Source: Mesostigma viride (lineage: Eukaryota; Streptophyta; Mesostigmatophyceae; Mesostigmatales; Mesostigmataceae). From it: 64,000 nt of DNA. Positions 18,258 to 61,539 of this stretch are shown in pieces. Positions within the stretch are counted from its first letter, which is position 1; each line of letters starts with the position of its first letter. The stretch spans positions 1 to 64,000 of the forward strand of contig RPFO01000203.1 of the NCBI GenBank assembly GCA_009746045.1, read 5' to 3'. The position numbers and the translations under genes are program-made. The notes below the pieces were generated by a model, which saw only the letters and a list, made by a program, of their open reading frames with translations, was not told the DNA's origin and ran no database searches.

Positions 18258-18259
18258 GC

Positions 18260-18400: not shown

Positions 18401-18427
18401 CCCCCCCTCGCTGGCTCTCATGGCTCC

Positions 18428-19865: not shown

Positions 19866-19893
19866 CTCAGCGTCACGCTGGGCTGAGGACCAA

Positions 19894-21570: not shown

Positions 21571-21590
21571 GCAGCCCCCGTTGTAGCACC

Positions 21591-27766: not shown

Positions 27767-27770
27767 AGCA

Positions 27771-34218: not shown

Positions 34219-34442
34219 AGTTAACGTAAAGGATTTACGTTAGATGGATAGAGATTGTTACGCTCTTTCCAACGGCACCTTGAACGCCTCATTTGGTTAA
34301 GGAACGTAAAAGTTTCGGGGTTCTTTGAACGGAGTTTCTTCTATACGTGAATGCGGGAACAAGAGGCCGCTGGATGAGCGGCTTATAGGTCGTAGTGTTT
34401 TCTCGTAGCTGTTTGGCTAGAGCTTTTGTGATTAGTAGATGC
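34219..34442 (+). repeat. Start of the 3' LTR of element C, interrupted by E
   Basis: 34219-34314 repeats the first 97 bp of the 5' LTR (13906-14002). 34315-34442 is a different block that recurs at 48643-48770. GATGC at 34438-34442 is the left target duplication of element E; the sequence resumes at 47387. Confidence 0.75.
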
Positions 34443-34902
34443 AGTTGGAACGAGTCTAACGACGATGGACAACTGCCGAAAGCTGAAATGGAAGGATGGT
34501 GGTATTAGCAATAATACAACTGATGAGAGTAGTGTAAGCTTGAGGGCTCAGAATGGAACGTCTGGGCAAACTCGGGTGCTGCGGCACTCCCCAGTGCTAC
34601 GCCTATATGCCTATGGCAGTGCTACCTGCAGCACCTACCGGTGGACAACTGGACACTGCAATGCCATGCGACCACGTCACTAGCATCACCTACACTCGGC
34701 CCGTCAGACCCGGATAACCCGGATCTGGCGGGTCGAGCTAGAGCCTAGGAACAGTCTGGCACTAACTGCACGTCAGTCCACATGACACCTCAGTACCGTA
34801 CACCCTGCCGTACAGTACTGAGGTGTCCCGCTCAGCCGCGGTAGGCAATACGCGGCGCGCAGGCCGGAAATCCGTGTGTCAGCCTAAGCATCTCATCTAA
34901 CT
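34443..34902 (-). repeat. 3' LTR of element E
   Basis: 460 bp; in the sense direction it starts AGTTAGATGAG and ends TTCCAACT. It follows a polypurine tract ending AATGGG. It contains a hairpin of 13 paired bases (GACACCTCAGTAC) near 34787-34830 and a second near 34698-34735. Confidence 0.93.
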
Positions 34903-35971
34903 CCCATTATGTTTTCCTTTCAGGTTGAAGGCTAGCGACTTCAAGCCTGATCCTGCCCAGCTAGGAGACTGACTCCAAGCTGACTGAGGTGCTGAGCAAC
35001 TGACACCCATACTGCAACATCTGGACTGAAAAAGATGGGCCCCAGAACTCGTGCAATACTTGTGATGGCATCACGTTTAGCTCAACATGCCCGGGGAGTT
35101 CCTCCTCCTCGCGAGCTCACAAGGGAGATAGCTATGCCTGTCTGCCTATCCAGGGAGTGCATCACCAGCCAAGAGAGCCATTGTAAAAAATGCCAAGGTA
35201 ACCGTTTAAGAGGTTCCATGTTGTTCCATCATCATCGCCCACTCAGAGAAAAAAATACCCAGCCAGGCTGGGTCAACTGAGCTCAGGTTACCTGCAACCT
35301 GAGGAGTGACAGGAGACAGGTTTATTGCACCCTGCACTGTCCATGTTGCACCTGCACAACATGTGAGGACCAGCCACCCCTGCCCTGCACAGAGGGGGCT
35401 GAAGTCCTAGTGACAGGTGACAGGACTATGACAGCCTGGACCTGTTCACGTTGCACCTGCACAACGTGTGAGGACCAGCCACCCCTGCCCTGCACAGTGG
35501 TGGCTGAATTCCTGGTGACAGGTGACAGGAATATTTCATCCTGCACCTGTGCTGAGCACGTTGTACTAGACAACATGACAGCGCCCATGCCTTTACTGCC
35601 ACTGAACAGTGAGGCCAGGTGGCCCAGGAGATCCACAGTGAACTGGGGTCCTGGGTAACCACCTGTCAAGGGAGCTTTGACCCTCCACTTGAATGGGAGG
35701 CACCTGAGCCACTGAGCTCAAGGCCAATCCACCAAGGCATACAACCCTAGTGGAGAAAGAATGTGAGATACATCCCCTGCCCACCTATGAAGGTGGGCAT
35801 AACGAAATTCCATGGTGTTGAAAAAATCGAAACAGATTTTATTGGCATAGGGCACGCAGATGCATGAAAACAGACTCCAACCAACCCCCCTTGCTGGAAG
35901 CCACAACCTACCCCTTGGACCTGCCCAAGGGTTACTGGGTTACCTAGGCGGCCCTGGTGAACAGGACCCTG
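34903..35971 (-). other. 3' untranslated region of element E
   Basis: Non-coding. It holds two tandem ~106 bp units around 35341-35550, each with a palindrome of the form ACGTTG...CAACGT, and AATAAAA in the sense direction at about 35838-35844 shortly after the RNase H stop. The same region is present in F and G; G has a single unit. Confidence 0.7.
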
Positions 35972-36523
35972 CTAGGCGTCCCCCCGATGGGGCAGGGTTG
36001 CCTGCTTGCCATACGGGTTCATCAAGTGGTACAACAGCTGATATTGTTCAGCTGCCTGCTGAGGCACTTTAGTGAGTGCATCAGCAGCGTTGTGTTTGTC
36101 CTCCACGTGACGGGTGGACTCCCAGTAGGTGGACTCCTGTTTAAGGACCACCCAGTCAAGATCAGTGTGCACAGCATAGGGGTTAGCAAGGAAACTGAGG
36201 ACTGACTGACTGTCAGTGAGCAAGTGTGCAACCACCCCAGCATTGCTGCCTGCCTGCATCTGCAACCAAACCAGCACATGATTCAAGTACCTGGCATGAA
36301 GCACTGCTGACACCACTGCCCTGCACTCAGCAGCATTGCTGCTGACAGCCTTGCGTCTATGCAACCGGCTGTACCATGAAATGAGAGACAGGGGTGCATC
36401 ATCATTCTGCACAAAATACAAGCCTGACTCCCTTGCCTGCAACTTGGTAATCTGCCTGGACTCCATGGAACTATCCATCATAGCTTGGATGTGAATGCTT
36501 TTATGGAGATCCAAGGAGTGCAA
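35972..36523 (-). CDS. RNase H of element E
   Basis: Copia-type RNase H: M-M-D-S-S-M-E-S, V-S-S-N-A-A-E-C-R-A, L-L-T-D-S-Q-S-V, and the tail N-A-A-D-A-L-T-K. It is one frame away from the RT because of an indel near 36530, which is absent from F at the equivalent place. Confidence 0.85.
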   Translation of the reverse strand: MHSLDLHKSIHIQAMMDSSMESRQITKLQARESGLYFVQNDDAPLSLISWYSRLHRRKAVSSNAAECRAVVSAVLHARYLNHVLVWLQMQAGSNAGVVAHLLTDSQSVLSFLANPYAVHTDLDWVVLKQESTYWESTRHVEDKHNAADALTKVPQQAAEQYQLLYHLMNPYGKQATLPHRGDA

Positions 36524-38447
36524 GATAAGGGGAGGGCCTTGAATCCTGTAGAGTTTTGGTGATGGCTTTGTGACCTACTTGCATCAAGACATCATCATCA
36601 ACTCTGCTAACCACAGCCAGGTGAGGTGCACACGTTGAGCACAACCACCCCAGCTTGCCTCTAATGGTAGGACAGTCTCCAGGTTTGATTTTGGTTTGCA
36701 AAACCTCCAAGCAACTGTGCATGTAATCATTGGGAGAGTATAGTGCACACACCCACTGGTTTTGATGCTGCTGGAGTTGTAACATTGTGCCACAAAATTT
36801 TATGGCAGTGGTGCCCAGCTCTACTTGCTTGCCAATTTCAAAATGCTGTGACACTTGTTGTATAAAATCATCTACAGCACGCCTTGGCCCAGCAATCAGC
36901 TGATCATCCCCATGCCACACAAAGGTGAGGATGCCATGAGGGTGTGGGACCACAAAGAAGCAAGGGTCTATGTCATCATATCTAGCCCCTAGCTTTTCAA
37001 ACACCGCCTGAGCTGACATCCTGAAAATGCGAGGAGCTGATTGCAGCCCTTCAACACCTATGTTAACTTTCAGGTACTGCTGAGGGATGTGTTTTGCCCA
37101 AACTCTTGGAGTGGAGACTACATACACCTGACCATGCCACACTTGTTGTGCTATCTCAGGTGAGCCTTTCAGGAAAGCCCTTTTAATGTCTGTAGCCTTA
37201 CATACATAGTCATCCCCGTCATTGAGATGACCCACAAAGACAGACAGCAAGATTTTATGAGAAGTCTGCTGAATGCCTGGTGTGTACAACTCTGCCTCTG
37301 TCAGATCAGTGGTGCCCTTGAACTCTGTCACACAGGGTCTAGCATGGAAAATGACTGACCCATCAGCTGCTGGCTTATGTTTACACACAAACTTTAGGCG
37401 CAAGTGCTTGCACCCTGCAGGCTTTTTGTCAATAGGTGTGACAGGTGGAGTGTGAGAGGGGCTAAGAGGATCTGGCACTACCCATTCTTCCCTTGCCTTG
37501 TTGAAGGCCTCCACCCATTTTAGGAAACCTATGTGTGTGCGACAATCTTGCTCTATCTGTTCATAAGAAAGAGGAGACATTTTAGCCACATCATGCTTGC
37601 CCAATCCAAAGGAGGTGGGATGAAGTTTTTGGTTATGAACCAAGTCTGCCACACAAGGTTCTTGCCCTGGGGCATACTTGGGGGTAGCAAATTTTACAGA
37701 AGCAATGTTGGTGTTAATAAGTTTTTGAAGGGAAATTTTGAAATGATTCAGATCAACACCACCCAGGTCCTGGATGGATAGTCTACTACTGGAAAAAATG
37801 ACCCCAGGGTAAGAGAGAAAAGGATCCCCCAACAAAGCATTACCTTTATAACCTTCCAATACCTGAAAAGGTGTGGGGATACCAAGTATAGTCAACATGA
37901 CCTGACCTTGTACCTTGAGGGATGACTGCCCTGAGAAATCAGCCACATGGTGCCAGGGTGAAGGTTCCAAAGGCATGTGGGGCACAGCCAGGGCACTGAT
38001 AATGCTGACCTGAGCTTGTGCGTCCACTGCAACCGTAAATGGGCTATTGTCATTCTGCCCAACCTTCCCCACCTTAGCTGATCCTGCAGCAGTTTGAGCT
38101 TTAGCTCTATGAGCTGATTGTAAAATGCGAACAGCTTCTGCTAGGCTGCGTTTGGAAGATACAGCTAGTGGCTGAGCTGTGTTCACAATTGAAGAGGTGA
38201 GAGGTTGCTGCTCACCTATTTTGCCATTGTAACCCTCTGCTGCAGGGGGGCAAGCCTGCAGTGACTGCCTGCAATCATCAAGGGTGACCTGGGTGTCACA
38301 GTGGGTGTGGCTCTCACACTCACCAGTGGGTGTTCCAAACAACCACTCACTGGGCAACGCTGGGATGCCAGGCAACTGTACAGGGCTGTCGGCCAACAGC
38401 TCTTCCTCCTCTGCCACGTCTGACACAGTTGGAAAATACAATTTCAT
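36501..38447 (-). CDS. Protease-like domain and reverse transcriptase of element E
   Basis: About 648 residues. The frame begins after the integrase C-terminal module. The protease signature is V-A-V-D-A-Q-A-Q-V-S-I-I (38035-38000), then A-D-F-S-G, and N-A-L-L-G-D-P-F ~75 residues on. RT follows: L-R-L-K-F-V, A-T-D-I-K-R-A-F-L, G-V-E-G-L-Q-S-A-P, and active site W-H-G-D-D-Q (about 36920-36903). The catalytic D-T/S-G triplet of retropepsins is replaced by D-A-Q here and D-T-Q in F. The upstream in-frame TGA (near 38460) comes from a 3-base insertion compared with F. Confidence 0.85.
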   Translation of the reverse strand: MKLYFPTVSDVAEEEELLADSPVQLPGIPALPSEWLFGTPTGECESHTHCDTQVTLDDCRQSLQACPPAAEGYNGKIGEQQPLTSSIVNTAQPLAVSSKRSLAEAVRILQSAHRAKAQTAAGSAKVGKVGQNDNSPFTVAVDAQAQVSIISALAVPHMPLEPSPWHHVADFSGQSSLKVQGQVMLTILGIPTPFQVLEGYKGNALLGDPFLSYPGVIFSSSRLSIQDLGGVDLNHFKISLQKLINTNIASVKFATPKYAPGQEPCVADLVHNQKLHPTSFGLGKHDVAKMSPLSYEQIEQDCRTHIGFLKWVEAFNKAREEWVVPDPLSPSHTPPVTPIDKKPAGCKHLRLKFVCKHKPAADGSVIFHARPCVTEFKGTTDLTEAELYTPGIQQTSHKILLSVFVGHLNDGDDYVCKATDIKRAFLKGSPEIAQQVWHGQVYVVSTPRVWAKHIPQQYLKVNIGVEGLQSAPRIFRMSAQAVFEKLGARYDDIDPCFFVVPHPHGILTFVWHGDDQLIAGPRRAVDDFIQQVSQHFEIGKQVELGTTAIKFCGTMLQLQQHQNQWVCALYSPNDYMHSCLEVLQTKIKPGDCPTIRGKLGWLCSTCAPHLAVVSRVDDDVLMQVGHKAITKTLQDSRPSPYLALLGSP

Positions 38448-38462
38448 CCTGTGAGGTGAACA

Positions 38463-38777
38463 TCACCTGTGAATCTTTCCCGTGTCATTTTGTTTAACCA
38501 GCACTGTCCTGCCAGTGGTATTAAACTTTAGGATGGTGGCTGGCCCATGCCAGGTACCCACCTTGCCTAGTCCCGACTCCTTGTAGAATAGGACCTGGTC
38601 CCCTTCTCTGAAGGTGGGACGTGGATGCTTTGCATCCTTGACAGCCCTCTGCAAGACCTCCTCCGCGGAAATGCGGAAGATGATGGGAGAGCTCTGCAGC
38701 CCCTCCACCCCTGTCAACAGCTCGATATACTCGCTGCCAATGGTGCCATCCTGCCAGACCACCGGGACCTTCACCAC
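38463..38777 (-). pseudogene. Fusion of truncated D reverse transcriptase to E integrase C terminus
   Basis: The first ~45 residues belong to the RT of D (G-V-E-G-L-Q-S-S-P-I-I-F). From A-V-K-D-A-K-H-P (38645 downward) the frame is the GPY/F-like C-terminal module of the E integrase (G-D-Q-V-L-F-Y-K-E, W-H-G-P-A-T-I-L). It is a by-product of the deletion that removed the 3' end of D. Confidence 0.75.
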
Positions 38778-39966
38778 GTAGCGGGTGCCTTAATTGCCAT
38801 GTTTGCTGCGCGACCCCAGCGTCGCTGTGGAGGAATGCCCGCTGAAAGTCACCGCACCACATCCCGTAGTCCTTGCCCGCGTTCCGCTTGCCCAAGTAGA
38901 TGACCGTCAGTAGCCGATGCGAAACATGGTTGAGCCCAGGGGTATAAAGATCCTTGGCGTCCAGCGGGGAGGACCCCTTCGTCTCCGTGACCGCGGGCCT
39001 TACCCGGAACACCACCGAAGAGTTGGTCTCGTCCGGCTTGTAGGTGAGCACGAACTTCAACCGCAACCGCGTGGCCCCGGCTGGCACACTCTCCAATCCT
39101 CGGTAGACCTCGCGCTCTCGCCACTGCTCCTTGGCTCGAATGAACGCGTCGCGCCACAAAGCAAACTTGAGAGGATCTTGACAGTCCAGGACAAGTTGCT
39201 CCCACGTCACAGGGCTATCCGCCGCCAGTGAGTGTGAGTGGAGGCCGAAGCTGCGCGGGTGCCAATCCTGAGGCTGAATGATGGACTGGACGAGCGGCGG
39301 TGTGGAAAACGCCGCCATCGGTAAGCGCCGCACGACGCCGGGCTGCCCGACCACCACCCCCAATGGAGCGTGGTACTCGCGAAGCGGGATGCTGCCCACC
39401 CCCGCGACTGACAGCAAGTCAGCGGACACTGAGAACCCCGGGTATGATACGAAAGGTTCGCCCAGCAAGGCCACATCCTCGTAGCCATCCACGACGTGAA
39501 ACGGCGTGTCAATGCCCAACACCGGCAGCACCACCATCCCGGTAACTTGATATGCCGAAGTGCCTGCAAAGTCGGTCACCGATTTGTACGGCGACTCTAG
39601 CACTGGATACAGGGTGGCTGCCCGACGAGAGATAATAGACACGGATGCTTGCGTGTCCACAGCCACCAGCTGCCACGGTCTACACGTAGGAAACAAGGCT
39701 GACTTAACCGGCCTGACCCCCTGTGAGAGAGTTTTGACCTGAGCCACCCCTGATGCAGCTTTCGCTTTAAGCGCCTGAGCACGCCACAAGGCCGTGACCG
39801 TTGAAGCCAGGTCCCTAGGTGGGCGAGGCGCATGGGCAGGACCCTGACCCTCCGGCGAGGCCACGCTAGGCGGGCCTCCCACATTATCCGTGGCTAGCAC
39901 AGGAGGTGAGTCACTACGTGCACTAGGTCCCGTCAAACCCACCCCATCCTCATCCCACCCATCCAC
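38646..39966 (-). pseudogene. Protease-like domain and partial reverse transcriptase of element D
   Basis: Protease signature L-V-A-V-D-T-Q-A-S-V-S-I-I (about 39667-39630), with V-A-L-L-G-E-P-F downstream. RT starts L-R-L-K-F-V and contains C-G-D-F-Q-R-A-F-L, after which the frame shifts near 38790 and continues to G-L-Q-S-S-P-I-I-F before the truncation. The active-site loop and RNase H are absent. The frame upstream is separated from the integrase by an indel in a G/A-rich run (39983-40002). Confidence 0.8.
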
Positions 39967-40928
39967 GGGGTCATATTGGGGCCCAGGGGAGGGGGGGGTG
40001 TAGCTGTGTCTGCCCCTGGGAGCGACCCGTGGGGTACCACCTCAGATGCTACGACAGGCGCATTATCCTTCACTACCCACCCCAGTGCCCTGTTGGCTGC
40101 CAGCTCACTCTCCATGCTATCCCCTTGCTTATAGCCTGCCACCGATGCCCATGGTACCCTATACACCCGATCATTCCACTCTATGTCTATGACCCGCAGC
40201 GGCCAGTCTAACTTTGTGATGGCCCCAGGCCCCTGCATGGTGCCCCGTTTGCCGCTGGGCGAGCTCTCCTTGTGGAACATGACCAACTGCCCGACCTCAA
40301 AAGCGCTAGACAAATCAGGCAGCGTGGCATCCTTGAGCCGCAGCTTGGCGGCGGTATCCTGTAGATGCTGTTGGTATGCCTCTACTACCTCGGGTGAGTA
40401 GGTGCCCGCTGACAGCCCCCGAGGCGTGACTAGCCCAAAGCCCTTGACATCAAGCACGTGCCTATGGTTGCACACATGCATGAGCTCCTTGCACCACGCC
40501 GTCTTGACCGCGTAGGATTTGCCATGTGGGTTATCCTGTCGCTTGGCTGCCACAGTCTTGACATAGCTTACAGTGCGATCTATCATGCCCATATTGCCGT
40601 GATCCTCACGCCCCACGATGACCACGGCCTCCATCCCCGGCAAACCTTGCACACAGCGGAACTGCTGGTCTAGCATGAGCTCCACTACGGGATGAAAGAA
40701 AGCCAGGCTGATCTTGATAGCCCTGTGCAGGTCAGCCTCAAACATGTGAGGCAGCGGCTCAATGTAGGTGGCCTTGCTGAACCTATCCTTGACTATGAAA
40801 TAGGTGTCCCCCCCTTCCATGTGCATGACATCCCCCACAAGGTACCCTCGCTCCAAGGGTGGAGTCTTGGCATGCCGCCTACGCGACTTCTTCCTGATCT
40901 TGATGCAGGCAGGACACTGAGCACGCAC
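39933..40928 (-). CDS. Integrase of element D
   Basis: Begins at the C-P-A-C half of the zinc module; the H-R-A-Y-G-H half is at the end of the Gag frame, one frameshift away. Core: V-G-D-V-M-H (first Asp, ~40825), L-M-L-D-Q-Q-F (second Asp, ~40665), and M-I-D-R-T-V where E-family elements have Glu. The C-terminal module is G-Q-L-V-M-F-H-K-E ... M-Q-G-P-G-A-I. The Glu-to-Asp change at the third catalytic position may impair activity. Confidence 0.8.
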   Translation of the reverse strand: MRAQCPACIKIRKKSRRRHAKTPPLERGYLVGDVMHMEGGDTYFIVKDRFSKATYIEPLPHMFEADLHRAIKISLAFFHPVVELMLDQQFRCVQGLPGMEAVVIVGREDHGNMGMIDRTVSYVKTVAAKRQDNPHGKSYAVKTAWCKELMHVCNHRHVLDVKGFGLVTPRGLSAGTYSPEVVEAYQQHLQDTAAKLRLKDATLPDLSSAFEVGQLVMFHKESSPSGKRGTMQGPGAITKLDWPLRVIDIEWNDRVYRVPWASVAGYKQGDSMESELAANRALGWVVKDNAPVVASEVVPHGSLPGADTATPPPPLGPNMTPWMGGMRMGWV

Positions 40929-40933
40929 ATTCT

Positions 40934-42715
40934 TCAGCTCGTTGTATAAAGGTGCCCCAACATGTGTGCCCCCTCTACCTCGGCTTGGGCCTCATGCCCG
41001 TATGCACGGTGCATCTGGTATGCTAACAGTTTCAGGGTGACAGCCTGAGGTGCAGTGGCATTGTCAGGATTCTCAACAGGTGGGGTGACTACTGGGGTAG
41101 TGACATTGGCTAACTGGGCAGCTTCAGAGGCTGCACGAAAGGCCGCCCGTGTGAGCACCTTGCCAATGTGAAGATCCACACTAGGGTGGTGTGTACCGAG
41201 AACATCTGCCCGCCCAGCATTCTCTTGCACTGTCACAACATTCCTCATAGGCCCAACCGCCCCAGTATCTAGCTGGGGTGCTGCAGTAGTGCTTGGTCGC
41301 TCGGCGTTGTACACACCCGACCTAGAAGACACCACATTGCTTAGGTCACGCATTGTAGACCCGTGCTCAGGAAGCACGTGATCCTGGCGCGACAGAGCCA
41401 GAGCAGCATCAACGGATTGCGTGAGCACATCACGGAATGAGACAGAGGATGCAGTCACGTTGCTTTTAGGAACGACGTCAGGCTCTACGACGGCCCGGTT
41501 CAGCGTGACGCATTGAGCAAAAGAAGGGGTATCGAGCGTGCTCTCACCTGACTTTCGTGCTGCCCGTCGCTCTGCCCACTCCTCGCGTGTGCCGTGGACG
41601 ACGATGCGCTTGGCCTTGCACGCCTCCACGCTGTGACCACGCAGAACGTCGTGGCACTTGCGGCAAAGGTTGTCCTCGAGCTCCAGGTCCGGGCGAACTC
41701 GGCAGTCATCCCGGACATGGCGACGTCCGAAGCAGCGCTCACAGCGTTGCTTGCGGTCAGTAGACGCCCCCTGCTGCCGCTTGGCCGGGGGATGATCACC
41801 CTGCTTGGCGTCGCCACCATGCCCGCGCTTGCGCCCTCGCTGGCCCCCGTTGTTGCCGTGGCCGACGACCTTTTTCAGGATGGCCGTAAGCTCCGACCGC
41901 GTAATTGGAGCCTCTGCGCCTGAAGAAGAAGACGCGCCGGCATCCACCTTGCGCAGGGATGGCAGAGCAGCCGAGGCAGCCGGCTTGGACTGCGCACTCT
42001 TGAAGCATGAGATTAAATACAGCATGCCCTCGTCGAAACTGACAGCACTCTTCTTTTTGAGTTCCGTCGCTATGGTCAGATGCACATCCGACGACAGGTC
42101 GCATTTCTTGAGAAATCGATTGCACAGGAAAATGGGCTTGAGAGTATCTAGCAGCTTGTGCTTGTGCACGAAGACCTGGAAATCACGTGCAGCCCCGGGC
42201 AAATTTGCCTTATTAACTGCATAGCCCTCGAAGTCATTGAAGGCTTGCTCGTCGGCCTCTTCCTTAGACCGCGACAAGTGGGCATCTAGACCGTTGTAAA
42301 AAACTTCCCAGGTTTGTTTGTTGTCGTCCGCAATGCGAACTAGATTGGCAATGTTTGGGTGCTTTGTTGTACTGCAGAATACTGCACGGAACTTGCCAAT
42401 CAGCTCCGAATCTTTGTCTGCGCGTCCATCGCGCAGACGCTTGAGAGCAGCTAGAAAATCTGCTGCGTCGTCCGCCGTATAGTCGGCAGGTAGATCCGCG
42501 GGCACCTCCGTTTGCTTGAGAGGGCCGCGATTCAGTGCATCGTCAGCAGCAAGCATCAGATGCTTGAACTGCTTGGCCAGTTCAGGTTGCGCCACGAGGG
42601 TTTGCATCAACCTCGTGGCCTCGTCCGCACTAAAGCGTGGCAGGACGGTCCCTGCGGCCTCGCCACTTGGCGTATCTGTGTGTTCGCCCGTGCGGCTCCG
42701 TGTACCGGAAGCCAT
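40934..42715 (-). CDS. Gag of element D with start of integrase zinc module
   Basis: 593 residues from the first ATG downstream of the LTR. A helical capsid-like region (~60-260) is followed by a Gly/Lys/Arg-rich segment and two zinc knuckles: C-E-R-C-F-G-R-R-H-V-R-D-D-C, and a looser C-x2-C-x6-H-x4-C. The last ~40 residues (L-A-Y-Q-M-H-R-A-Y-G-H-E) are the N-terminal half of the integrase zinc module, so Gag and integrase were one frame. No protease-sized domain separates knuckle and integrase. Confidence 0.85.
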   Translation of the reverse strand: MASGTRSRTGEHTDTPSGEAAGTVLPRFSADEATRLMQTLVAQPELAKQFKHLMLAADDALNRGPLKQTEVPADLPADYTADDAADFLAALKRLRDGRADKDSELIGKFRAVFCSTTKHPNIANLVRIADDNKQTWEVFYNGLDAHLSRSKEEADEQAFNDFEGYAVNKANLPGAARDFQVFVHKHKLLDTLKPIFLCNRFLKKCDLSSDVHLTIATELKKKSAVSFDEGMLYLISCFKSAQSKPAASAALPSLRKVDAGASSSSGAEAPITRSELTAILKKVVGHGNNGGQRGRKRGHGGDAKQGDHPPAKRQQGASTDRKQRCERCFGRRHVRDDCRVRPDLELEDNLCRKCHDVLRGHSVEACKAKRIVVHGTREEWAERRAARKSGESTLDTPSFAQCVTLNRAVVEPDVVPKSNVTASSVSFRDVLTQSVDAALALSRQDHVLPEHGSTMRDLSNVVSSRSGVYNAERPSTTAAPQLDTGAVGPMRNVVTVQENAGRADVLGTHHPSVDLHIGKVLTRAAFRAASEAAQLANVTTPVVTPPVENPDNATAPQAVTLKLLAYQMHRAYGHEAQAEVEGAHMLGHLYTTS

Positions 42716-42735
42716 CGGGATTTTTATGAATACAA

Positions 42736-43080
42736 GTTAAAGCCCGACCGGCTCAGCTATGGCGGTCGGTCACGTTGAGCTTGGGATAAGGTGAACACAG
42801 AGAACTGCTGTCGGAGCTGGCCAACCACTGGTTTATGTCTTAGCCAGCAAAGCCTATCCGGTTGGTCCGTAACCGTGGGACAAGCTAGCTGTCCGTACCG
42901 ACCCGGATAAGGCCCCGGACTGGGGCCTAGGTGGCGCCGGCCCTAGGCGCCGCCCTTAGACCGCTCGACCGCATCGGACCGCCGGATTATAGCCGGCGGC
43001 TTAGCGGACGCTAGCGGAAGGCGTGCGGACGGACATGGGGAACTTAGAGCCAGATCCTAGGGCTCTAGAGTTACTCAACT
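42736..43080 (-). repeat. 5' LTR of element D
   Basis: Inferred from position and ends: sense start AGTTGAGTAACTC at 43080, sense end TTTAACT at 42736, close to the Gag ATG. It contains a strong GC-rich inverted repeat (GGCCCCGGACTGGGGCC and GGCGCCGGCCCTAGGCGCC type, 42910-42955). The partner 3' LTR is deleted. Confidence 0.55.
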
Positions 43081-44178
43081 TAACCTGCTAGCTGTATGTG
43101 CTCGCTGTGCATTGTATAGGGCTAGTACCTCAGGTGGATAAATGCCTGCATGCAATCCATCTGGTGTAATGATCACCCCTTGTGGGGTTTTCATGAGTGG
43201 CCTCCTGTTGAGGACTTGGCACAGCCTGGTGGACCACAGAGCTCTGTCAGCATATGACCCACTGTCAGCCAGCAGATTACCATCTTCCTTGGCTACAAGG
43301 GTTTTAATGGACCTGATGGCCCTTTCAATAATGCCTTGCCTCTCATGATCTTCTAGCCCAGCCAGATCAATAGCCTCACACCCTGGTTCATTGGCAAGAC
43401 ACGTGAACTGTTGATCCAGTAATAATGCCTCCACAGGGTAGTACCTGGCCTGAGCAATCAAGAGAGCCCTGAGCAACTGTGTCTTGTCCATTCCAGGTAA
43501 TGGTTCAATGGTTGTGTACCGTGACCATGCATCTTTAAGTGCCAAGTAAGATTGTCCTTTTATATGAAAGACATCTCCTACCACCCTGCCCTTGCACTTA
43601 GGTGGGGTAGCTACATGCCACTTAGGGGGTTTGGGTGCATTGAACTGGCAATGCTGGCAGTGGGATCTGACCACCTGGCACGCACGTCTGAGTGCTGCCC
43701 CCCCTATTGCTGCTGCCACCACCTCTGCACTCACTTCATGCCCATAAAGGAAGTGCAACTGCAAAGCAAGCTCCTGAATACTGATATGAGCATCCGCTGA
43801 GGGGGACACTCTGCACACCTTGGGAACCATAGATGTGAAGGTTGGTTTAGAAACATAATCTTCTGAAACCAGCTGTAGCACCTTTCCAGAACTGCTCACT
43901 GCTCTGACAGTGGGGCATGCAGATGAAAGAGGTGAAGCAGGCACACTCAAGCCAGCATGAGAGGGAGACTCACACTTCTTGCCGTAAGGAGGCCGCTTGC
44001 AGTCCTTGGGGTCACCGTGGGGCGGCCCGTGGCACTTGTGGCACAGGACGTCCAAGTGCTGCAGCTCGTCCACGTTCTTGCGGCATTTGGGCCGCGAGTG
44101 GTACCTCATGCCACAGCGGGTGCACCGCTGAAAAGCCTTGTCCTCCTTGTCCTGCTTGTTGTTGTTGTTGTTGTTGTT

Positions 44179-44226
<48 letters not shown>

Positions 44227-45120
44227 GCTGTTGTTGTTGTTGTTGTTGCTGTTGTTGTTGCTGGAGCTGCCCCCCTTGGAGGGAGACTGCCCCTTACCCT
44301 TGCCCTTGCCCCAGCCCCTGCCCTTGCCCTTGCCCTTGCCCTTGCCCTTGCCCCTGCCCTTAAACAGCTGTCCCAGCAGGGACTTCTCCTCTGCCATGGT
44401 GACAGGTCTCTTGCTCCTGTCTTCCCTCTCCCTGTCCTCCTCCTCCCTATCCTCCCCCCTGACCCTCTTTACAGAGGTGCCCATGGCCCCCTGGCTGAGT
44501 GGGGCCAGGGCCAGCTTGATATAATCCAATGCCTCCTTCATGTCCTCCCAGTACTTTGCCATTCCTGTTGCAAGCATAGCGTAGGTGTTTTTGTCAAGTT
44601 TGAGTTTCTCCAGGAAGGAACGCAGCAAGAACTTGTGATCTAGCTGCTGGACATCAGGACGTGCTTTGATGGCTAGCTCATATTTCTTGGTCTCAGCCAC
44701 ATAGTCTACGGAGGTGACCCTGTATTCCTCTACCCACCTGAATGCCCCATACATGTCCACAGATGAGGGTGTGGAGAGGAGGTCAGTTAGCTCCTTCATG
44801 AAGGCCTCCCAGACTGCCCTAGCCAGCGTGTCCTGCCACTTGGGATACCTACGCTGGAAGACAAGGATGAGATTCTGAATCTGAGAGGAGGACTGGTGGT
44901 AAAAATCCCCCTGCATGAGAGATCCAAACCAATTCTTGACATTCAGTTCCTCCCTAGCCAGCTGTAGCCGAGAGAAGTGCATGATTCCCCTGCTCCCTAG
45001 TATACCCCTCAGGCAGCCCCCTGACATTAATCCTATCCACAGGACGGTTTTCATTGTATGTGGGCCACCTGGAGGGGGATGCAGGGGGTGAGGGAGAAGA
45101 TGGTGTTGCTGCTGCAGCAT
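43081..45120 (-). CDS. Gag C-terminal part and integrase of element E
   Basis: Genuine sequence starts at L-Q-L-A-R-E-E-L (~44960); the first ~53 residues are an out-of-frame lead. There follow a helical Gag region, a Lys-Gly repeat, a long Asn run, a knuckle C-T-R-C-G-M-R-Y-H-S-R-P-K-C, a second C-x2-C-x4-H-x5-C, and then without a break the integrase. The integrase has F-L-Y-G-H-E ... C-Q-H-C, G-D-V-F-H (~43575), L-L-L-D-Q-Q-F (~43420) and I-I-E-R-A-I (~43325), a complete D-D-E. Gag and integrase are thus one polyprotein with no protease between them. Element D interrupts the frame at its end (A-S-R-L). Confidence 0.88.
44155..44385 (-). repeat. Asn and Lys-Gly codon repeats in Gag of element E
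   Basis: An AAC trinucleotide array (44155-44270) encodes ~35 Asn. A GGCAAG hexanucleotide array (about 44295-44375) encodes Lys-Gly repeats, probably an RNA-binding tail. Antisense frames rich in Val, Leu or Cys are artefacts. Confidence 0.85.
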
Positions 45121-46210
45121 TCACAGGAGAGACATGCTGAGAGGGAGGTGCTACCTGAGTGAGCTGAGCAGGAGAGGCAAGCATGGGCTGTGTAGGAGGG
45201 GTAGGCAACATAGGGGTGGGCTGGGTGGGGGTGTGAGGATGTGTGACTTCCCGCCTCCTGCTGCGGGCCTCCTCCCAGTCATGGAAGGTGGGAGAGAGAG
45301 ACACGTCATCGTCAGTAGGGTTAGTAAAATCATGATGCAGCCAGGTAGGCAACCACCTACCCGCCCCTGACAAGATGGCATTGTGCAGGAGCTCCAGGAG
45401 TCGCACCAGGCGAACCCTGTTGCCCTGCACCCTCCTCCCTGAGAGGAGGGCCTGCAGGGCAGGCAGCAAGTCGTCACACACCCTGCGTGTGTCCGCGTGG
45501 ACTTTGGGCAAGCCCAGTATGTGCGTGATAATCGCACACACCAGGCTGCCCGCCTCCGCGACGTGCAGCTGCTGGCTCCTGTCGGCCAGCCCACGGAAGG
45601 AGGCGGTGGCGGCCTGAATGGCCCTCCACACAGGCTCATCACCCAGGGTGACGAAGTCCTGACCTTCCAGATCGCCGTCCAGCCGTGCCGGCTGCTGCCC
45701 TGCCAGGGTGGGACCCTGAGGCCCCTCCGGCCCAGCCAGGGCCTTGTCCCTGTTGCGACTAGAGGGGGCCTGCCCCCCAGAGCCGCTGGAGGTGCCCGTG
45801 ACACCCTCCATGGGAGTGACCTCCCCCGCCTGCGCCGGAGGCGCCGGCGTCGCTGCCGGGGTCCCTGCAACCCCGGTGGCCTCCTCAGCCACCTGGCCCC
45901 CCACGCTGGGCGGGGGAGCCCGCTGCTGAGGCTGGACCCTCTGACCTGCCAGAGGGTCCTGGGTGGTTTCACCACCCATGGGCGTGGTAGGGGCGACTGC
46001 CGCCCCGCGCTCCGTCGCAGGCGGCATCGCAGCCGCCTCGCGCCTGTCCGGGCCCCAGCCAACTGGCGTGACTTGGGGCCACGGCGGCAACGGAGTCAGC
46101 GTGATCTCCTGCTTGGCGACCACGCGCAGCGCCTCTCTCTGACGCTGCCTGGACGCCCACTGATCCACAGTGCCTGGATTGCGCCTCGGCCTATTGGCGA
46201 AGCACCACAT
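44954..46210 (-). CDS. Gag middle part of element E
   Basis: 418 residues; Pro/Ala/Gly-rich N-terminal half, then a helical domain (W-R-A-I-Q-A-A-T ... L-L-E-L-L-H-N-A-I, residues ~190-290) and a Pro/Thr-rich linker ending Y-N-E-N-R-P-V-D-R-I-N-V. The corresponding region of F shows that it should continue directly into L-Q-L-A-R-E-E-L; here it is cut by a one-base indel near 44980. Confidence 0.75.
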   Translation of the reverse strand: MWCFANRPRRNPGTVDQWASRQRQREALRVVAKQEITLTPLPPWPQVTPVGWGPDRREAAAMPPATERGAAVAPTTPMGGETTQDPLAGQRVQPQQRAPPPSVGGQVAEEATGVAGTPAATPAPPAQAGEVTPMEGVTGTSSGSGGQAPSSRNRDKALAGPEGPQGPTLAGQQPARLDGDLEGQDFVTLGDEPVWRAIQAATASFRGLADRSQQLHVAEAGSLVCAIITHILGLPKVHADTRRVCDDLLPALQALLSGRRVQGNRVRLVRLLELLHNAILSGAGRWLPTWLHHDFTNPTDDDVSLSPTFHDWEEARSRRREVTHPHTPTQPTPMLPTPPTQPMLASPAQLTQVAPPSQHVSPVNAAAATPSSPSPPASPSRWPTYNENRPVDRINVRGLPEGYTREQGNHALLSATAG

Positions 46211-46883
46211 CCAAACTGCATGCCACCTGGATCATGTTGAACTGCATCCGCAGACGATTCTCGAGCAGCGTGTGCGTCCGATGAACATCCATCGCGTGCG
46301 TCGGCTCATCGGCGGTCAGCTGAAAACGCTGACGAATGATCCAGCCGTTCACCGAGATGAACGCTGGGATGTCATCTTCCCCGATGGGGAGAAGATACGG
46401 TAAGCGCCCGAACTCGACAGGCGGCGGAACATGCGCACCATACCGGTCGATGTCCAGGATGGCCATCTGTCGGCCCACCGAGAGATTACCAGACGTCGCC
46501 GGCGTCTGGGAAGAAATCTCTAGCGAAGGCCGTGGCCTCACAGGCGGCACCTCCCCGTCCTCTTCCGAGGAGTCACTCCGTTCACGACCCCCATCACCTG
46601 CGATGGGGGAATTACGTGCCCGGGGGACCTGCCCCCCGGGTGCCATGGCGGACGAGCCGCCAGTGGCAAACGGGCGTCCGCTCGCCATCCCCCGGGCGCC
46701 GGTCCCCACCTGCGGGGTCCGACGCCTGGGGTGGTCGGCGACCACCGTGCGGAAGGTGACGCTAGGCGTCACCCTCGCTGCATCGTTGGCGGAGGGCGTG
46801 CCCTCCGGCGTGAGTCGGGGGGATGTGCGCCTGGCAGGCGCCTTCCCCTTGTTGTTGTTGTCGTTGACGTTGTTGAAAGCCAT
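46191..46883 (-). CDS. Gag N-terminal part of element E
   Basis: 230 residues from the first ATG after the PBS. The N-terminal ~110 residues are basic and disordered; a more structured part follows (M-A-I-L-D-I-D-R-Y-G ... I-I-R-Q-R-F-Q-L). It overlaps the next Gag frame by 20 bases, the two being one base out of register near 46200. I cannot name a domain. Confidence 0.7.
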   Translation of the reverse strand: MAFNNVNDNNNKGKAPARRTSPRLTPEGTPSANDAARVTPSVTFRTVVADHPRRRTPQVGTGARGMASGRPFATGGSSAMAPGGQVPRARNSPIAGDGGRERSDSSEEDGEVPPVRPRPSLEISSQTPATSGNLSVGRQMAILDIDRYGAHVPPPVEFGRLPYLLPIGEDDIPAFISVNGWIIRQRFQLTADEPTHAMDVHRTHTLLENRLRMQFNMIQVACSLDVVLRQ

Positions 46884-46913
46884 GTTTTTTTGTTTTTCGG
46901 AAAAAATAAAAAA

Positions 46914-46926
46914 GCTTTTCAGTCCA
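46914..46926 (-). promoter_or_regulatory. Primer-binding site of element E
   Basis: Directly next to the LTR end the sense strand reads TGGACTGAAAAGC. It starts with TGG as expected for pairing with a tRNA 3' CCA. The tRNA species was not identified. Confidence 0.65.
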
Positions 46927-47386
46927 AGTTGGAACGAGTCTAACGACGATGGACAACTGCCGAAAGCTGAAATGGAAGGATGGTTGTATTAGCAATAATA
47001 CAACTGATGAGAGTAGTGTAAGCTTGAGGGCTCAGAATGGAACGTCTGGGCAAACTCGGGTGCTGCGGCACTCCCCAGTGCTACGCCTATATGCCTATGG
47101 CAGTGCTACCTGCAGCACCTACCGGTGGACAACTGGACACTGCAATGCCATGCGACCACGTCACTAGCATCACCTACACTCGGCCCGTCAGACCCGGATA
47201 ACCCGGATCTGGCGGGTCGAGCTAGAGCCTAGGAACAGTCTGGCACTAACTGCACGTCAGTCCACATGACACCTCAGTACCGTACACCCTGCCGTACAGT
47301 ACTGAGGTGTCCCGCTCAGCCGCGGTAGGCAATACGCGGCGCGCAGGCCGGAAATCCGTGTGTCAGCCTAAGCATCTCATCTAACT
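46927..47386 (-). repeat. 5' LTR of element E
   Basis: 460 bp, one substitution from the 3' LTR (T in place of G at the position equivalent to 34503). GATGC follows at 47387-47391. Confidence 0.93.
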
Positions 47387-49220
47387 GATGCAGTATAGTG
47401 CATGGTTGAAAAATGAATTAAATAAAATGTGCGTTCCGCGCTTGGGTTGATTATACCCGGGCGGAACGGGGCGTGAGGTGCAGTGCCCCTGAAAAGAACA
47501 ACCTACGCATTATTTAATACTAGCCGTGCAGATTCGGGATATTCTACCCCCGGTCTGTACAGTTAGCGTCGTACTAGCATCACTGAACATAAGGGTTTAA
47601 TGACGTCAGTTAGCTAGGGATAAGGGAGGTTTTGCGACTAAAAGCCGCTCTGGCTGGTTTTGTCGGCCTCTTTCTTTGCTGTCAGCCGCAGCTATGGGTG
47701 CTGCGGAGCAAAATCCCAAAAGCACTGGTTGCACCGGCCACTTGGCCAGTGGTGAGACTTTCAGTTGTTAACCGGCCAGGCGTAGTTCCTCGCTCGGTTA
47801 ACTAAAAGAAAAGGAAATGATTACCTCCGGTCCGCACCTTTTCCCCAGCTTGGGGTCTTTGGTGGGCCGGGTGCCGTGACAGGTGCTCAACTGTCGCTTG
47901 GTCGGCCCAGTGCGCGAGCTGGTGCTCCGTACCTGGGGATGCTTGCACCCCGGGTTGGAGCCGGATGGCTGGCACTGGCGACCCGTGTCTCGGTCCGCGG
48001 CCTGAGGCTTTTTCTTCGGAAATTGCTGCTGGCCAGCAAACTTTGCAATTGCCTTCCGCCGAAGGGGGGGGTGGTTGGGGCTGGGGACGGCGATGGGAAA
48101 AGCGCCTAAGCTAGAAATTTTTTCCCCACGCATAGAAACCTCGGGGGGGAATGCGGTCTTGGCTGAACGGACTCTCGTTCAGCCAGGTGCCTGGGGCTGT
48201 GGCCTCGGGCATCCGGGCTGGCGGGGCCTGGGCTAGGTCCACGTTTTTTCTCGAAGCACCCCGGATCTATGGGGAGACGGCCAAAGCGGTACCGACTCGG
48301 GGCCCCGAGAGGGGTCATCATGATAGGCTGGCCGTGCGCAATCGCAGTGCAAATTATGCGCTGGGCCTTTTTGGGCCTGGCCATGCATCCACAGCCGCCG
48401 GGCACACGCCTCCCGATGTGGGGGGGCTCCCGTTTTGCGGCAGGGCGGCCACTTGTGACAACGAGCAAGGTGGAGTGCGGCTTCAAGGGAAAGCCAGGGC
48501 GGGGGTGATTGGGCAACGTACTTCATGAAGGGCCTTGAACGGCGTGCCTCCGGGCATGTCAATAGTGTCACATGTATGCTTCCACTTATTGTTTTATGGG
48601 AATGAAGATGCTGGTTTTTGTGGGAGCTACCTGGGACATGAATCGGGGTTCTTTGAACGGAGTTTCTTCTATACGTGAATGCGGGAACAAGAGGCCGCTG
48701 GATGAGCGGCTTATAGGTCGTAGTGTTTTCTCGTAGCTGTTTGGCTAGAGCTTTTGTGATTAGTAGATGCAGTATAGTGCATGGTTGAAAAATGAATTAA
48801 ATAAAATGTGCGTTCCGCGCTTGGGTTGATTATACCCGGGCGGAACGGGGCGTGAGGTGCAGTGCCCCTGAAAAGAACAACCTACGCATCATTTAATACT
48901 AGCCGTGCAGATTCGGGATATTCTACCCCCGGTCTGTACGGTTAGCGTCTTACTAGCATCACTGAACATAAGGGTTTAATGACGTCAGTTAGCTAGGGAT
49001 AAGGGAGGTTTTGCGACTAAAAGCCGCTCTGGCTGGTTTTGTCGGCCTCTTTCTTTGCTCCCCACGCACCCCCCCTTGTCTTGGTTGCCTCTAGGGCAAC
49101 GTACTTCATGAAGGGCCTTGAACGGCGTGCCTCCGGGCATGTCAATAGTGTCACATGTATGCTTCCACTTATTGTTTTAATGAAGATGCTGGTTTTTGTG
49201 GGAGCTACGTGGGACATGAA
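47387..49220 (+). repeat. Modular LTR-like region: block pairs T-Q and S, continuation of the C 3' LTR
   Basis: Block T (47392-47680) recurs at 48771-49059. Block Q (48511-48642) recurs at 49094-49220. Block S (48643-48770) recurs at 34315-34442. Between T and Q lie 830 bp of otherwise unseen DNA (47681-48510) in the first unit and only 34 bp in the second. T contains an inverted repeat CGTTCCGC...GCGGAACG. With E removed, the order after the C 3' LTR start is S-T-Q-S-T-Q followed by the block at 49221. No coding signal was recognised. Confidence 0.7.
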
Positions 49221-56615: not shown

Positions 56616-57072
56616 AGTTGGATCGAGTCTAACGACGATGGACAACTGCTGAGAGCTGAGAGGAAACGATTGTTGTATTAGCAATAATACAATGAGAGTG
56701 GTGGAAGCTTGAGGGCTCAGAATGGAACGTCTGGGCAAACTCGGGTCCTGCGGCACTCCCCAGTGCTACGCCTATATGCCTATGGCGGTGCTACCTGCAG
56801 CACCTACCAGTGGACAACTGTACACTGCAATGCCATGCGACCACGTCACTAGCATCAACTACACTCGGCCCGTCCAGAACCGGATAACCCGGGTCTGGCG
56901 GGTCGAGCTAGAGTCTAGGCACAGTCTGGCACTAACCGCACATCGGTCCACATGACACCTCAGTACCGTACACCCTGCCGTACAGTACTGAGGTGTCCCG
57001 CTCAGCCGCGGTAGGCAATACGCGGCGCGCAGGCCGGAAATCCGTGTGTCAGCCTAAGCATCTCATCTAACT
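56616..57072 (-). repeat. 3' LTR of element F
   Basis: 457 bp, AGTT...AACT ends, homologous to the E LTRs with scattered differences. The low side abuts integrase sequence of element I. Confidence 0.9.
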
Positions 57073-58141: not shown

Positions 58142-58810
58142 CTAGGCGTCCCCCCTATGGGGCAGGGTTGCCTGCTTGCCATAGGGGTTCATCAAGTGGT
58201 ACAACAGCTGATATTGTTCAGCTGCCTGCTGAGGCACTTTAGTGAGTGCATCAGCAGCGTTGTGTTTGTCCTCCACGTGACGGGTGGACTCCCAGTAGGT
58301 GGACTCCTGTTTAAGGACCACCCAGTCAAGATCAGTGTGCACAGCATAGGGGTTAGCAAGGAAACTGAGGACTGACTGACTGTCAGTGAGCAAGTGTGCC
58401 ACCACCCCAGCATTGCTGCCTGCTTGCATCTGCAACCAAACCAGCACATGATTCAAGTACCTGGCATGAAGCACTGCTGACACCACTGCCCTGCACTCAG
58501 CAGCATTGCTGCTGACAGCCTTGCGTCTATGCAACCGGCTGTACCATGAAATGAGAGACAAGGGTGCATCATCATTCTGCACAAAATACAAGCCTGACTC
58601 CCTTGCCTGCAACTTGGTAATCTGCCTGGACTCCATGGAACTATCCATCATAGCTTGGATGTGAATGGTTTTGTGGAGATCCAAGGAGTGCAAGATAAGG
58701 GGAGGGCCTTCCTGGAGAGTTTTGGTGATGGCTTTGTGACCTACTTGCATCAAGACATCATCATCAACTCTGCTAACCACAGCCAGGTGAGGTGCACACG
58801 TTGAGCACAA
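58142..58810 (-). pseudogene. RNase H and RT C terminus of element F
   Basis: Copia RNase H identical in motif content to that of E, here in one frame with the last part of the RT connection (V-V-S-R-V-D-D-D-V-L-M). It is separated from RT by an indel near 58815. Confidence 0.85.
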
Positions 58811-58826
58811 CCACCCCAGCTTGCCT

Positions 58827-59768
58827 CTAATGGTGGACAGGCTCCAGGTTTGATTTTTGTTTGCAAAACCTCCAAGCAGCTGTGCATGTAATCATTGGGA
58901 GAGTAAGTGCACACACCCACTGGTTTTGATGCTGCTGGAGTTGTAACATTGTGCCACAAAATTTTATGGCAGTGGTGCCCAGCTCTACTTGCTTGCCAAT
59001 CTCAAAATGCTGTGACACTTGTTGAATAAAATCATCTACAGCACGCCTTGGCCCAGCAATCAGCTGATCATCCCCATGCCACACAAAGGTGAGTATGCCA
59101 TGAGGGTGTGGGACCACAAAGAAGCAAGGGTCTATGTCATCATATCTAGCCCCTAGCTTTTCAAACACAGCCTGAGCTGACATCCTGAAAATGCGAGGAG
59201 CTGATTGCAGCCCTTCAACACCTATGTTAGCTTTCAGGTACTGCTGAGGGATGTGTTTTGCCCAAACTCTGGGAGTGGAGACTACATACACCTGACCATG
59301 CCACACTTGTTGTGCTATCTCAGGTGAGCCTTTCAGGAAAGCCCTTTTAATGTCTGTAGCCTTACATACATAGTCATCCCCATCATTGAGATGACCCACA
59401 AAGACAGACAGCAAGATTTTTAAGGATGTTTGCTGAATGCCTGGCGTGTACAACTCTGCCTCTGTCAGATCAGTGGTGCCCTTGAACTCTGTCACACAAG
59501 GTCTAGCATGGAAAATGACTGACCCATCTGCTGCTGGCTTATGTTTACACACAAACTTCAGGCGCAAGTGCTTGCACCCTGCAGGCTTTTTGTCAATAGG
59601 TGTGACAGGTGGAGTGTGAGAAGGGCTAAGAGGATCTGGCACTACCCATTCTTCCCTGGCCTTGTTAAAGGCCTCCACCCATTTTAGGAATCCTATGTGT
59701 GTGCGACAGTCTTGCTCTATCTGTTCATAAGAAAGAGGAGACATTTTAGCCACATCATGCTTGCCCAA
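58827..59768 (-). pseudogene. Reverse transcriptase of element F
   Basis: Contains L-R-L-K-F-V, A-T-D-I-K-R-A-F-L, G-V-E-G-L-Q-S-A-P and the active site W-H-G-D-D-Q (about 59085-59068). Joined in E to the protease-like domain in one frame; here an indel near 59780 separates them. Confidence 0.85.
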
Positions 59769-59910
59769 TCCAAATGAGTGGGATGAAGTTTTTGGTTGTG
59801 AACCAAGTCTGCCACACAGGGTTCTTGCCCTGGGGCATACTTGGGTGTAGCAAATTTTACAGAAGCAATGTTGGTGTTAAGAAGTTTTTCAAGAGAAATT
59901 TTGAAATGAT

Positions 59911-61539
59911 TCAGATCAACACCACCCAGTCCTGGATGGATAGTCTATCACTGGAGATAATGACACCAGGGTAACAGAGAAAAGGATCCCCCAACAAAGC
60001 ATTCCCTTTATAACCTTCCAATACCTGAAAAGGAGTGGGGATACCGAGTATAGTCAACATGACCTGACCTAATACCTTGAGGGATGACTGCCCTGAGAAA
60101 TCAGCCACATGGTGCCAGGGTGAAGGTTCCAAAGGCATATGGGGCACAGCCAGGGCACTGATAATGCTGACCTGGGCTTGTGTGTCCACTGCAACCATAA
60201 ATGGGCTATTGTCATTCTGCCCAACCTTCCCCACCTTAGCTGATCCTGCAGCAGTTTGAGCTTTAGCTCTATGAGCTGCTTGTAAAATGCGAACAGCGTC
60301 TGCTAGGCTGCGTTTGGAAGGTGCAGCTAGTGGCTGAGCTATGTTCACACTTGAAGAGGTGATAGGTTGCTGATCACCTGTTTTGCCAATGTGACCCTCT
60401 GCTGCAGGGGGCCAAGCCTGCAGTGACTGCCTACAATCATCAAGGGTGACCTGGGTGTCACAGTGGGTGTGGCTCTCACACTCACCAGTGGGTGTTCCAA
60501 ACAACCACTCACTGGGCAACGCTGGGATGCCAGGCAACTGTACAGGGCTGTCGGCCAACAGCTCTTCCTCCTCTGCCACGTCTGACACAGTTGGAAAATA
60601 CAATTTCATCCTGTGAGGTGAACACCTGTGAATCTTTCCCGTGTCATTGTGTTTAACTAACACTGTCCTGCCAGTGGTGTTAAACTTTAGGATGGTGGCT
60701 GGCCCATGCCAGGTACCCACCTTGCCTAGTCCCGACTCCTTGTAGAATAGGACCTGATCCCCTTCTCTGAAGGTGGGACGTGGATGCTTTGCATCCTTGA
60801 CAGCTAACCTGCTAGCTGTCTGTGCTCGCTGTGCATTGTATAGGGCTAGTACCTCAGGTGGATAAATGCCTGCATGCAATCCATCTGGTGTAATGATCAC
60901 CCCTTGTGGGGTTTTCATGAGTGGCCTCCTGTTGAGGACTTGGCACAACCTGGTGGACCACAGAGCTCTGTCAGCATATGACCCACTGTCAGCCAGCAGA
61001 TTGCCATCTTCCTTGGCTACAAGGGTTTTAATGGACCTGATGGCCCTTTCAATAATGCCTTGCCTCTCATGATCTTCTAGCCCAGCCAGATCAATAGCCT
61101 CACACCCTGGTTCATTGGCAAGACACGTGAACTGCTGATCCAGTAACAATGCCTCCACAGGGTAGTACCTGGCCTGAGCAATCAAGAGAGCCCTGAGCAA
61201 CTGTGTCTTGTCCATTCCAGGTAATGGTTCAATGGTTGTGTACCTTGACCATGCATCTTTAAGTGCCAAGTAAGATTGTCCTTTGATATGAAAGACATCT
61301 CCTACCACCCTGCCCTTGCACTTAGGTGGGGTAGCTACATGCCACTTAGGGGGTTTGGGTGCATTGAACTGACAATGCTGGCAGTGGGATCTGACCACCT
61401 GGCATGCACGTCTGAGTGCTGCCCCCCCTATTGCTGCTGCCACCACCTCTGCACTCACTTCATGCCCATAAAGGAAATGCAACTGCAAAGCAAGCTCCTG
61501 AAAACTGATATGAGCATCCTCTGAGGGGACACTCTGCAC
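59911..61539 (-). CDS. Integrase followed by protease-like domain (element F)
   Basis: 542 residues in one frame: the clearest single frame showing integrase before protease. Zinc module F-L-Y-G-H-E ... C-Q-H-C (residues ~22-55); core with G-D-V-F-H, L-L-L-D-Q-Q-F and I-I-E-R-A-I (complete D-D-E); a GPY/F-like C-terminal module (G-D-Q-V-L-F-Y-K-E ... W-H-G-P-A-T-I, ~260-300); a ~130-residue linker; then V-A-V-D-T-Q-A-Q-V-S-I-I (~445-456) and N-A-L-L-G-D-P-F (~520). The start is in Gag, out of frame with it by one base near 61530; the end is a frameshift before RT. Confidence 0.88.
   Translation of the reverse strand: MQSVPSEDAHISFQELALQLHFLYGHEVSAEVVAAAIGGAALRRACQVVRSHCQHCQFNAPKPPKWHVATPPKCKGRVVGDVFHIKGQSYLALKDAWSRYTTIEPLPGMDKTQLLRALLIAQARYYPVEALLLDQQFTCLANEPGCEAIDLAGLEDHERQGIIERAIRSIKTLVAKEDGNLLADSGSYADRALWSTRLCQVLNRRPLMKTPQGVIITPDGLHAGIYPPEVLALYNAQRAQTASRLAVKDAKHPRPTFREGDQVLFYKESGLGKVGTWHGPATILKFNTTGRTVLVKHNDTGKIHRCSPHRMKLYFPTVSDVAEEEELLADSPVQLPGIPALPSEWLFGTPTGECESHTHCDTQVTLDDCRQSLQAWPPAAEGHIGKTGDQQPITSSSVNIAQPLAAPSKRSLADAVRILQAAHRAKAQTAAGSAKVGKVGQNDNSPFMVAVDTQAQVSIISALAVPHMPLEPSPWHHVADFSGQSSLKVLGQVMLTILGIPTPFQVLEGYKGNALLGDPFLCYPGVIISSDRLSIQDWVVLI

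Follow-up and report, generated by a model that had tools for sequence, protein, structure and literature searches.

The order of the domains in the Pol polyprotein serves to sort long terminal repeat (LTR) retrotransposons into superfamilies, and a locus of Mesostigma viride, a unicellular streptophyte alga, raises the question of whether an integrase can come before the protease in such an order. The locus is a 64,000-nucleotide stretch (positions 1 to 64,000 of contig RPFO01000203.1, hereafter the window), which self-comparison resolved into a nest of LTR elements. We call these elements A to F and K; the labels are our own and may differ from the letters of an earlier note on the same DNA. 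Three diverged families in the window (C and F together, D, and E) have the order Gag, integrase, retropepsin-like domain, reverse transcriptase (RT) and ribonuclease H (RNase H). In Ty1/copia elements, Pol runs protease, integrase, RT and RNase H, as given in the available text of PMC6317226.

Element F lies on the minus strand from 56616 to beyond 64000. Its 542-residue open reading frame (ORF; 59911-61539; ORF call, tblastn and Foldseek) holds the integrase and the retropepsin-like domain in one frame, with the zinc module, D-D-E core and GPY/F-like stretch that the earlier note had described. The integrase (60601-61539, end approximate) contains H21, H26, C53 and C56, which we take by eye to be the zinc ligands, then D81, D134 and E164, and near residue 278 a stretch that we presume, on the same basis, to be GPY/F-like. 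The retropepsin-like domain (residues 435-537, VDTQAQVSIIS to ALLGDPF; 59929-60237) was recognized by motif, profile and predicted structure. It is followed by the RT (58827-59876) and by a C-terminal piece of RNase H (58142-58891) that aligned to E and to the gene model P0003; a Gag piece at 62210-62806 matches the Gag of C at 86% by tblastn.

The same order recurs in the other elements. In C (34443-47386, minus strand), the end of Gag with its zinc knuckles continues into integrase within a 681-residue ORF (43075-45120), and a 653-residue frame (36501-38462) spans the integrase tail, the retropepsin-like domain (37749-38075, by motif) and the RT, with RNase H at 35972-36574 (ORF and tblastn). 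The earlier note had run this frame into the RT after removal of an insert; the continuity stands, as it does in D and in the gene models P0002 and P0003, and no insert was taken out to join the frames. In D, a partial minus-strand copy of the second family, Gag runs into the integrase zinc module (40934-42736, ORF) and is followed by the integrase (39933-40991, 40% to F; ORF and tblastn) and by the retropepsin-like domain (VDTQASVSIIS to ALLGEPF; 39379-39720; motif and tblastn), whose frame continues into the start of the RT. Element E, the third family, lies on the plus strand at about 27767-33266 and is split by element K. Its integrase, with a mutated core, shares a frame with the retropepsin-like domain (27767-29622, ORF and tblastn; domain VDTNSQVSIIG to ALLGQNF at 28987-29322, motif and phmmer), and RT and RNase H resume beyond K (31855-33266, tblastn).

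Two further sequences came from protein searches. P0002, the best match to the 542-residue product (99% identity over 44% of the query), and P0003, the match of a separate search, both carry the EukProt source code jgi/Mesvir1, which we take to mean Mesostigma viride. P0002 is another C/F-family copy comprising integrase tail, retropepsin-like domain and pre-RT linker, and P0003 is a D-family gene model of 629 residues that runs from the middle of the retropepsin-like domain through RT to RNase H. Between the window families, Pol pieces matched by tblastn in the same order with E values of about 5e-16 to 2e-68, including the integrase-protease part of F against E (1e-47), the integrase of D against F (2e-50) and the protease-RT part of D against C (6e-65), which bears out the earlier claim of a third order in three diverged families. 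Gag similarity between these families was limited to one zinc knuckle (tblastn, 1e-4).

What is the domain that follows the integrase? The earlier note had set its fold in advance as a check on its reading, and the predicted model of the domain folds as a retropepsin. All five sequences in which the site can be seen (the four window copies and P0002) retain the active-site Asp and the ALLG motif. The D-T/S-G triad of active clan AA retropepsins is absent: the third residue is Gln in F, D, P0002 and C and Asn in E, and C also has Ala in place of Thr. In an alignment with yeast Ddi1, a host protein whose retroviral-protease-like domain keeps the canonical glycine, VDTGAQ is paired with VDTQAQ. 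Neither the loss of this glycine nor the ALLG motif, which differs from the form that Ty1/copia usually has, had been remarked in the earlier note. To our knowledge, glycine at this position is nearly universal in retropepsins, and the D-T-Q/N site suggests that catalysis may be altered or weak.

Signs of selection were found on the domain. Between C and F, the protease differs by 8 synonymous and 7 nonsynonymous changes, with a ratio of nonsynonymous to synonymous rates (dN/dS) of 0.25, compared with 0.17 for the integrase core and 0.08 for the RT. Between families, protease dN is 0.48 for F and D and 0.63 for F and E (dN/dS 0.34), alongside 0.63 for the integrase of F and D and 0.54 for the RT of C and D over 99 codons, with saturation at synonymous sites wherever D is compared. 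By these sequence measures, the protease is about as conserved as the adjoining enzymes, which argues for function, though not for catalysis as such.

Sequence searches with the domain gave faint matches. The Pfam scan of whole ORFs and of the typed F domain gave no protease match. With phmmer against the PDB, E had 24 matches, of which 10 were NFAT entries and 14 HIV proteases; among the latter, tethered dimers gave E=0.003 but a single chain gave only 0.63. The F integrase-protease region had seven matches, none of them relevant, and D had none. A protease profile matched the window's two gypsy proteases weakly, with a score of 18.1 that 1 of 200 column shuffles also reached. When the structure of integrase and protease was predicted jointly from two sequences, the model was poor (predicted local distance difference test score, pLDDT, 36); among the matches listed by Foldseek for that model, 50 of 50 were retroviral integrases with E values down to 5.7e-7, but with template modelling scores of about 0.1 and a root-mean-square deviation of about 20 Å, and we take these matches as support only.

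The picture would change if a conventional protease lay between Gag and integrase. None was found in the window copies, all of which are broken; no intact copy was available. The three-frame scan for D-T/S-G across the Gag regions of C, D, E and F and the Pol of F gave seven matches, none with an ILG-like motif 40-80 residues further on in frame. In C and F, 81 residues separate the second zinc knuckle from the first integrase His, with no D-T/S-G within, which bears out, for this family, the earlier statement that a protease has no room there. It does not hold for D, whose linker is longer and contains a stray LDTGA.

The RT points to Ty1/copia. The Pfam profile RVT_2 matched above cut-off in F (E=2.5e-10) and C (1.2e-9) and below it in E (2.7e-5), whereas RVT_1 matched none of the RTs scanned; neither profile matched P0003 or the D piece. 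In BLASTP comparisons with the conventional copia element L001, C gave an E value of 7.7e-12 (22% identity), E 0.002 and P0003 0.013. The RVT_2 matches and the alignment of C to a copia RT place the RT-RNase H nearest to Ty1/copia, a placement made from sequence matches. Where the usual RT active site is Y-x-D-D, that of F, C, E and P0003 reads HGDD (58827-59876, 36501-38462 and 31815-33266 in the window). For the integrase, the Pfam profile rve matched below cut-off in F (E=0.018), C and E and was absent in D, and the D-D-E core named in the earlier note is complete in C and F but reads D-D-D in D and D-N-K in E. The distance from the second acidic residue to the third catalytic position is 29 residues in all three families, compared with 35 in L001. 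In L001, about 105 residues without a Pfam match lie between the last integrase match and the RT, and a stretch that we read by eye as an ILS-like protease tail lies in frame directly before the integrase.

Copy C also has the hallmarks of an LTR retrotransposon. Its 460-bp LTRs (5' LTR 46927-47386, 3' LTR 34443-34902; repeat comparison) are 99.8% identical and are flanked by a 5-bp target duplication, GATGC on the plus strand (34438-34442 and 47387-47391), which falls in the 4-6 bp range of LTR retrotransposons; a paralogous site near 48766-48770 is undisrupted. The 5' LTR is followed immediately by a likely primer-binding site, TGGACTGAAAAGC (46914-46926, minus strand, from sequence reading), and a purine-rich tract, GAAAGGAAAACATAATGGG, precedes the 3' LTR. 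The primer-binding site of Ty1/copia elements is usually for initiator tRNA-Met; there is no tRNA gene in the window with which to compare that of C. The LTRs of C run AGTT...AACT, D starts with AGTT, and the 3' LTR of F (56616-57072; its 5' LTR lies beyond the window) ends in CCAACT, so that TG...CA ends, the form found in most LTR retrotransposons (PMC12440569, available text), are not seen. Troyka offers a precedent for other LTR ends, but it is an animal lineage with 3-bp duplications and CG...CG ends, according to the same source.

How, then, does the group relate to known systems? With Ty1/copia (Pseudoviridae) it shares an RVT_2-type RT that lies after the integrase and ahead of RNase H, as well as LTRs and a 5-bp duplication, and it works like a Ty1/copia-type retrotransposon. 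It differs in the protease after integrase, the D-T-Q/N site, the LTR ends, and the ALLG motif of all four window copies; Ty1/copia proteases usually have ILS at this place, whereas nearly every other clan AA family has ILG (PMC2642776, available text). Because order, protease motif and LTR ends all depart from Ty1/copia, we do not file the group there, and the earlier description of the elements as copia-like is apt for the RT-RNase H of F, C and E but not for these three features. With Ty3/gypsy (Metaviridae) the group has in common the protease directly before RT-RNase H, the ALLG-type motif and, by eye, the GPY/F-like integrase tail, but Ty3/gypsy elements have the order protease, RT, RNase H, integrase and an RVT_1-type RT. 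Gmr1-like gypsy elements are a precedent for altered Pol order, but in them the protease is still ahead of the integrase and the RT is of the gypsy type. They have been described as Ty3/gypsy elements with a Ty1/copia-like pol order (Goodwin and Poulter 2002, via the available text of PMC2774666). The Belpaoviridae profile of the International Committee on Taxonomy of Viruses, in its accessible part, places integrase upstream of protease in Pseudoviridae (PMC8742986); we take this as a slip because the Pseudoviridae profile (PMC8515867) and PMC6317226, in their accessible parts, give the usual order. We found no description of the order Gag, integrase, protease, RT, RNase H in the titles and abstract beginnings searched, a scope that leaves aside most subscription papers and Repbase reports. 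In the main survey of plant elements, those with an unexpected domain order were discarded "in every case" as probable mispredictions (PMC6317226, available text). The accessible parts of the Mesostigma genome papers put LTR elements at 27.9% in one and repeats at 38.7% in the other; the word "copia" appears in neither, and their repeat passages do not give domain order.

The explanation that we consider probable is that these are copy-out, paste-in LTR retrotransposons whose polyprotein reads Gag, integrase, retropepsin, RT and RNase H. The retropepsin would dimerize within assembled Gag-Pol particles and cut itself and the integrase free, releasing Gag, so that the Gag/integrase junction would take the place of the usual Gag/protease junction. 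The RT would then copy the RNA from a tRNA primer, and the integrase would insert the copy through 5-bp staggered cuts. As to origin, an ILG-type retropepsin may have replaced the old copia protease, or Pol may have been assembled separately, rather than by a simple move, because the motif is ALLG and no protease-like stretch was found before the integrase. More tentatively, and with somewhat less than even confidence, we suggest that the group could be a separate superfamily-level LTR lineage with a third Pol order, defined by copia-like RT-RNase H, an integrase of 29-residue spacing, a non-copia retropepsin working with D-T-Q/N and LTR ends of AG...CT.

Several observations weigh against this explanation. 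The triad glycine is missing in 5 of 5 sequences (D-T-Q, D-T-N or D-A-Q), the protease Pfam matches are far below cut-off (PF13975, 13.4 versus 28.2 bits; 2 of 4 members), and those of the integrase are also below it (15.7 versus 32.6 bits). Between C and F, the integrase-protease interval shows no constraint (1 synonymous and 12 nonsynonymous changes), and the protease dN of F and E equals the integrase dN of F and D. D has 202 residues between zinc knuckle and integrase, where the stray LDTGA lies, and the Gag-Pol frame is broken in every window copy. Protein searches with element products matched only the two Mesostigma proteins, and one of these searches gave no match. Outside Mesostigma, a plasmid search gave two records with remote, conventional copia RTs (22% identity), which we take for contaminants; scans of a viral contig collection and of a genome contig collection, which says little since it holds only bacteria and archaea, gave no relative. 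Integrase-before-protease elements are apparently restricted to one species so far.

The missing glycine lends itself to a different reading, in which the domain keeps a retropepsin fold as a structural or dimerization unit without catalysis, with the polyprotein either left uncut or processed by a different protease. We consider this rather doubtful, as the Asp is kept in every sequence, the ALLG region is retained, changes are biased to synonymous ones and the parts of the elements that were scanned yielded no further protease. A Ty1/copia protease might instead have shifted from before to after the integrase by recombination (template switch), with no new source. This would need a single rearrangement and fits the copia-type RT-RNase H of F, C and E, and proteases diverge fast: GAG and PROT are more variable than RT, RH and INT (PMC6317226, available text). 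The consistent ALLG in place of ILS and the ILS-like stretch before the L001 integrase speak against such a move, which we judge unlikely; on sequence grounds, a copia protease in a new place seems less likely than replacement by another retropepsin type. The stray LDTGA in the D linker might mark a canonical protease inside Gag, the later domain being a spare second copy. This is very improbable, since the linker has no ILG-like motif at the right distance and no Pfam match, its sole PDB match (E=1.8) is not a retropepsin, and the C/F linker is short and free of D-T/S-G. Finally, in a region crowded with nested and frame-broken elements, nesting, recombination or assembly error might have put an unrelated protease-like piece beside the integrase. 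We give this the least credence, because the frames are continuous in C, D, E, F and P0003 with the junctions inside them, three diverged families agree, the protease is conserved between families, and the two algal gene models concur.

The remaining features of the window concern the nest itself. D (38646-43080; repeat comparison and tblastn) lies within the integrase of C, with its 5' LTR start at one end, a truncated RT at the other, no target duplication and no loss of target relative to F; it was apparently inserted by an unusual route or trimmed exactly at the target border. K (29623-31854, plus strand) is a short LTR element between the protease and RT of E, with 665-bp LTRs that are 99.4% identical and end in TG...CA and a 5-bp duplication, GTCTA; a 92-bp piece of its LTR occurs reversed at 13814-13905. 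A probable E Gag with a zinc knuckle lies at 14488-17017 on the plus strand, linked to E by position, with gypsy element B intervening before the integrase; tblastn did not match it to the Gag of either C or D. Direct repeats occur around E and a related locus (13903-14002 and 34216-34314; 48511-48642 and 49094-49220), and their LTR arrangement could not be made out. The gypsy elements A (3-9281) and B (17079-27766), both on the minus strand, are related, being 72% and 96% alike in two long matched stretches. In A, the protease is followed by a C-5 cytosine DNA methylase domain (PF00145, E=5.6e-11) and the integrase by a PHD finger (E=4.7e-9); the ORFs of B resemble those of A by eye. DNMT3 in Gypsy elements has been published for Klebsormidium, with no mention of Mesostigma in the available text (PMC5890265). 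A reversed C/F-family piece, consisting of the RNase H end and 3' LTR (9280-10917, about 88-90% identical), is joined to the end of A, and a 1.7-kb GAGGAGG tandem array at 11330-12998 has long open frames in several frames that are unlikely to be genes.

If the group is a separate lineage, its order would have arisen from Pol modules put together independently rather than from a single rearrangement within Ty1/copia, and if the third order is real, filters on unexpected order can hide lineages. The elements also separate two questions that are usually tied, namely where the protease must stand for Gag maturation and whether a protease under selection needs the glycine of D-T/S-G. Both can be tested in one small alga.
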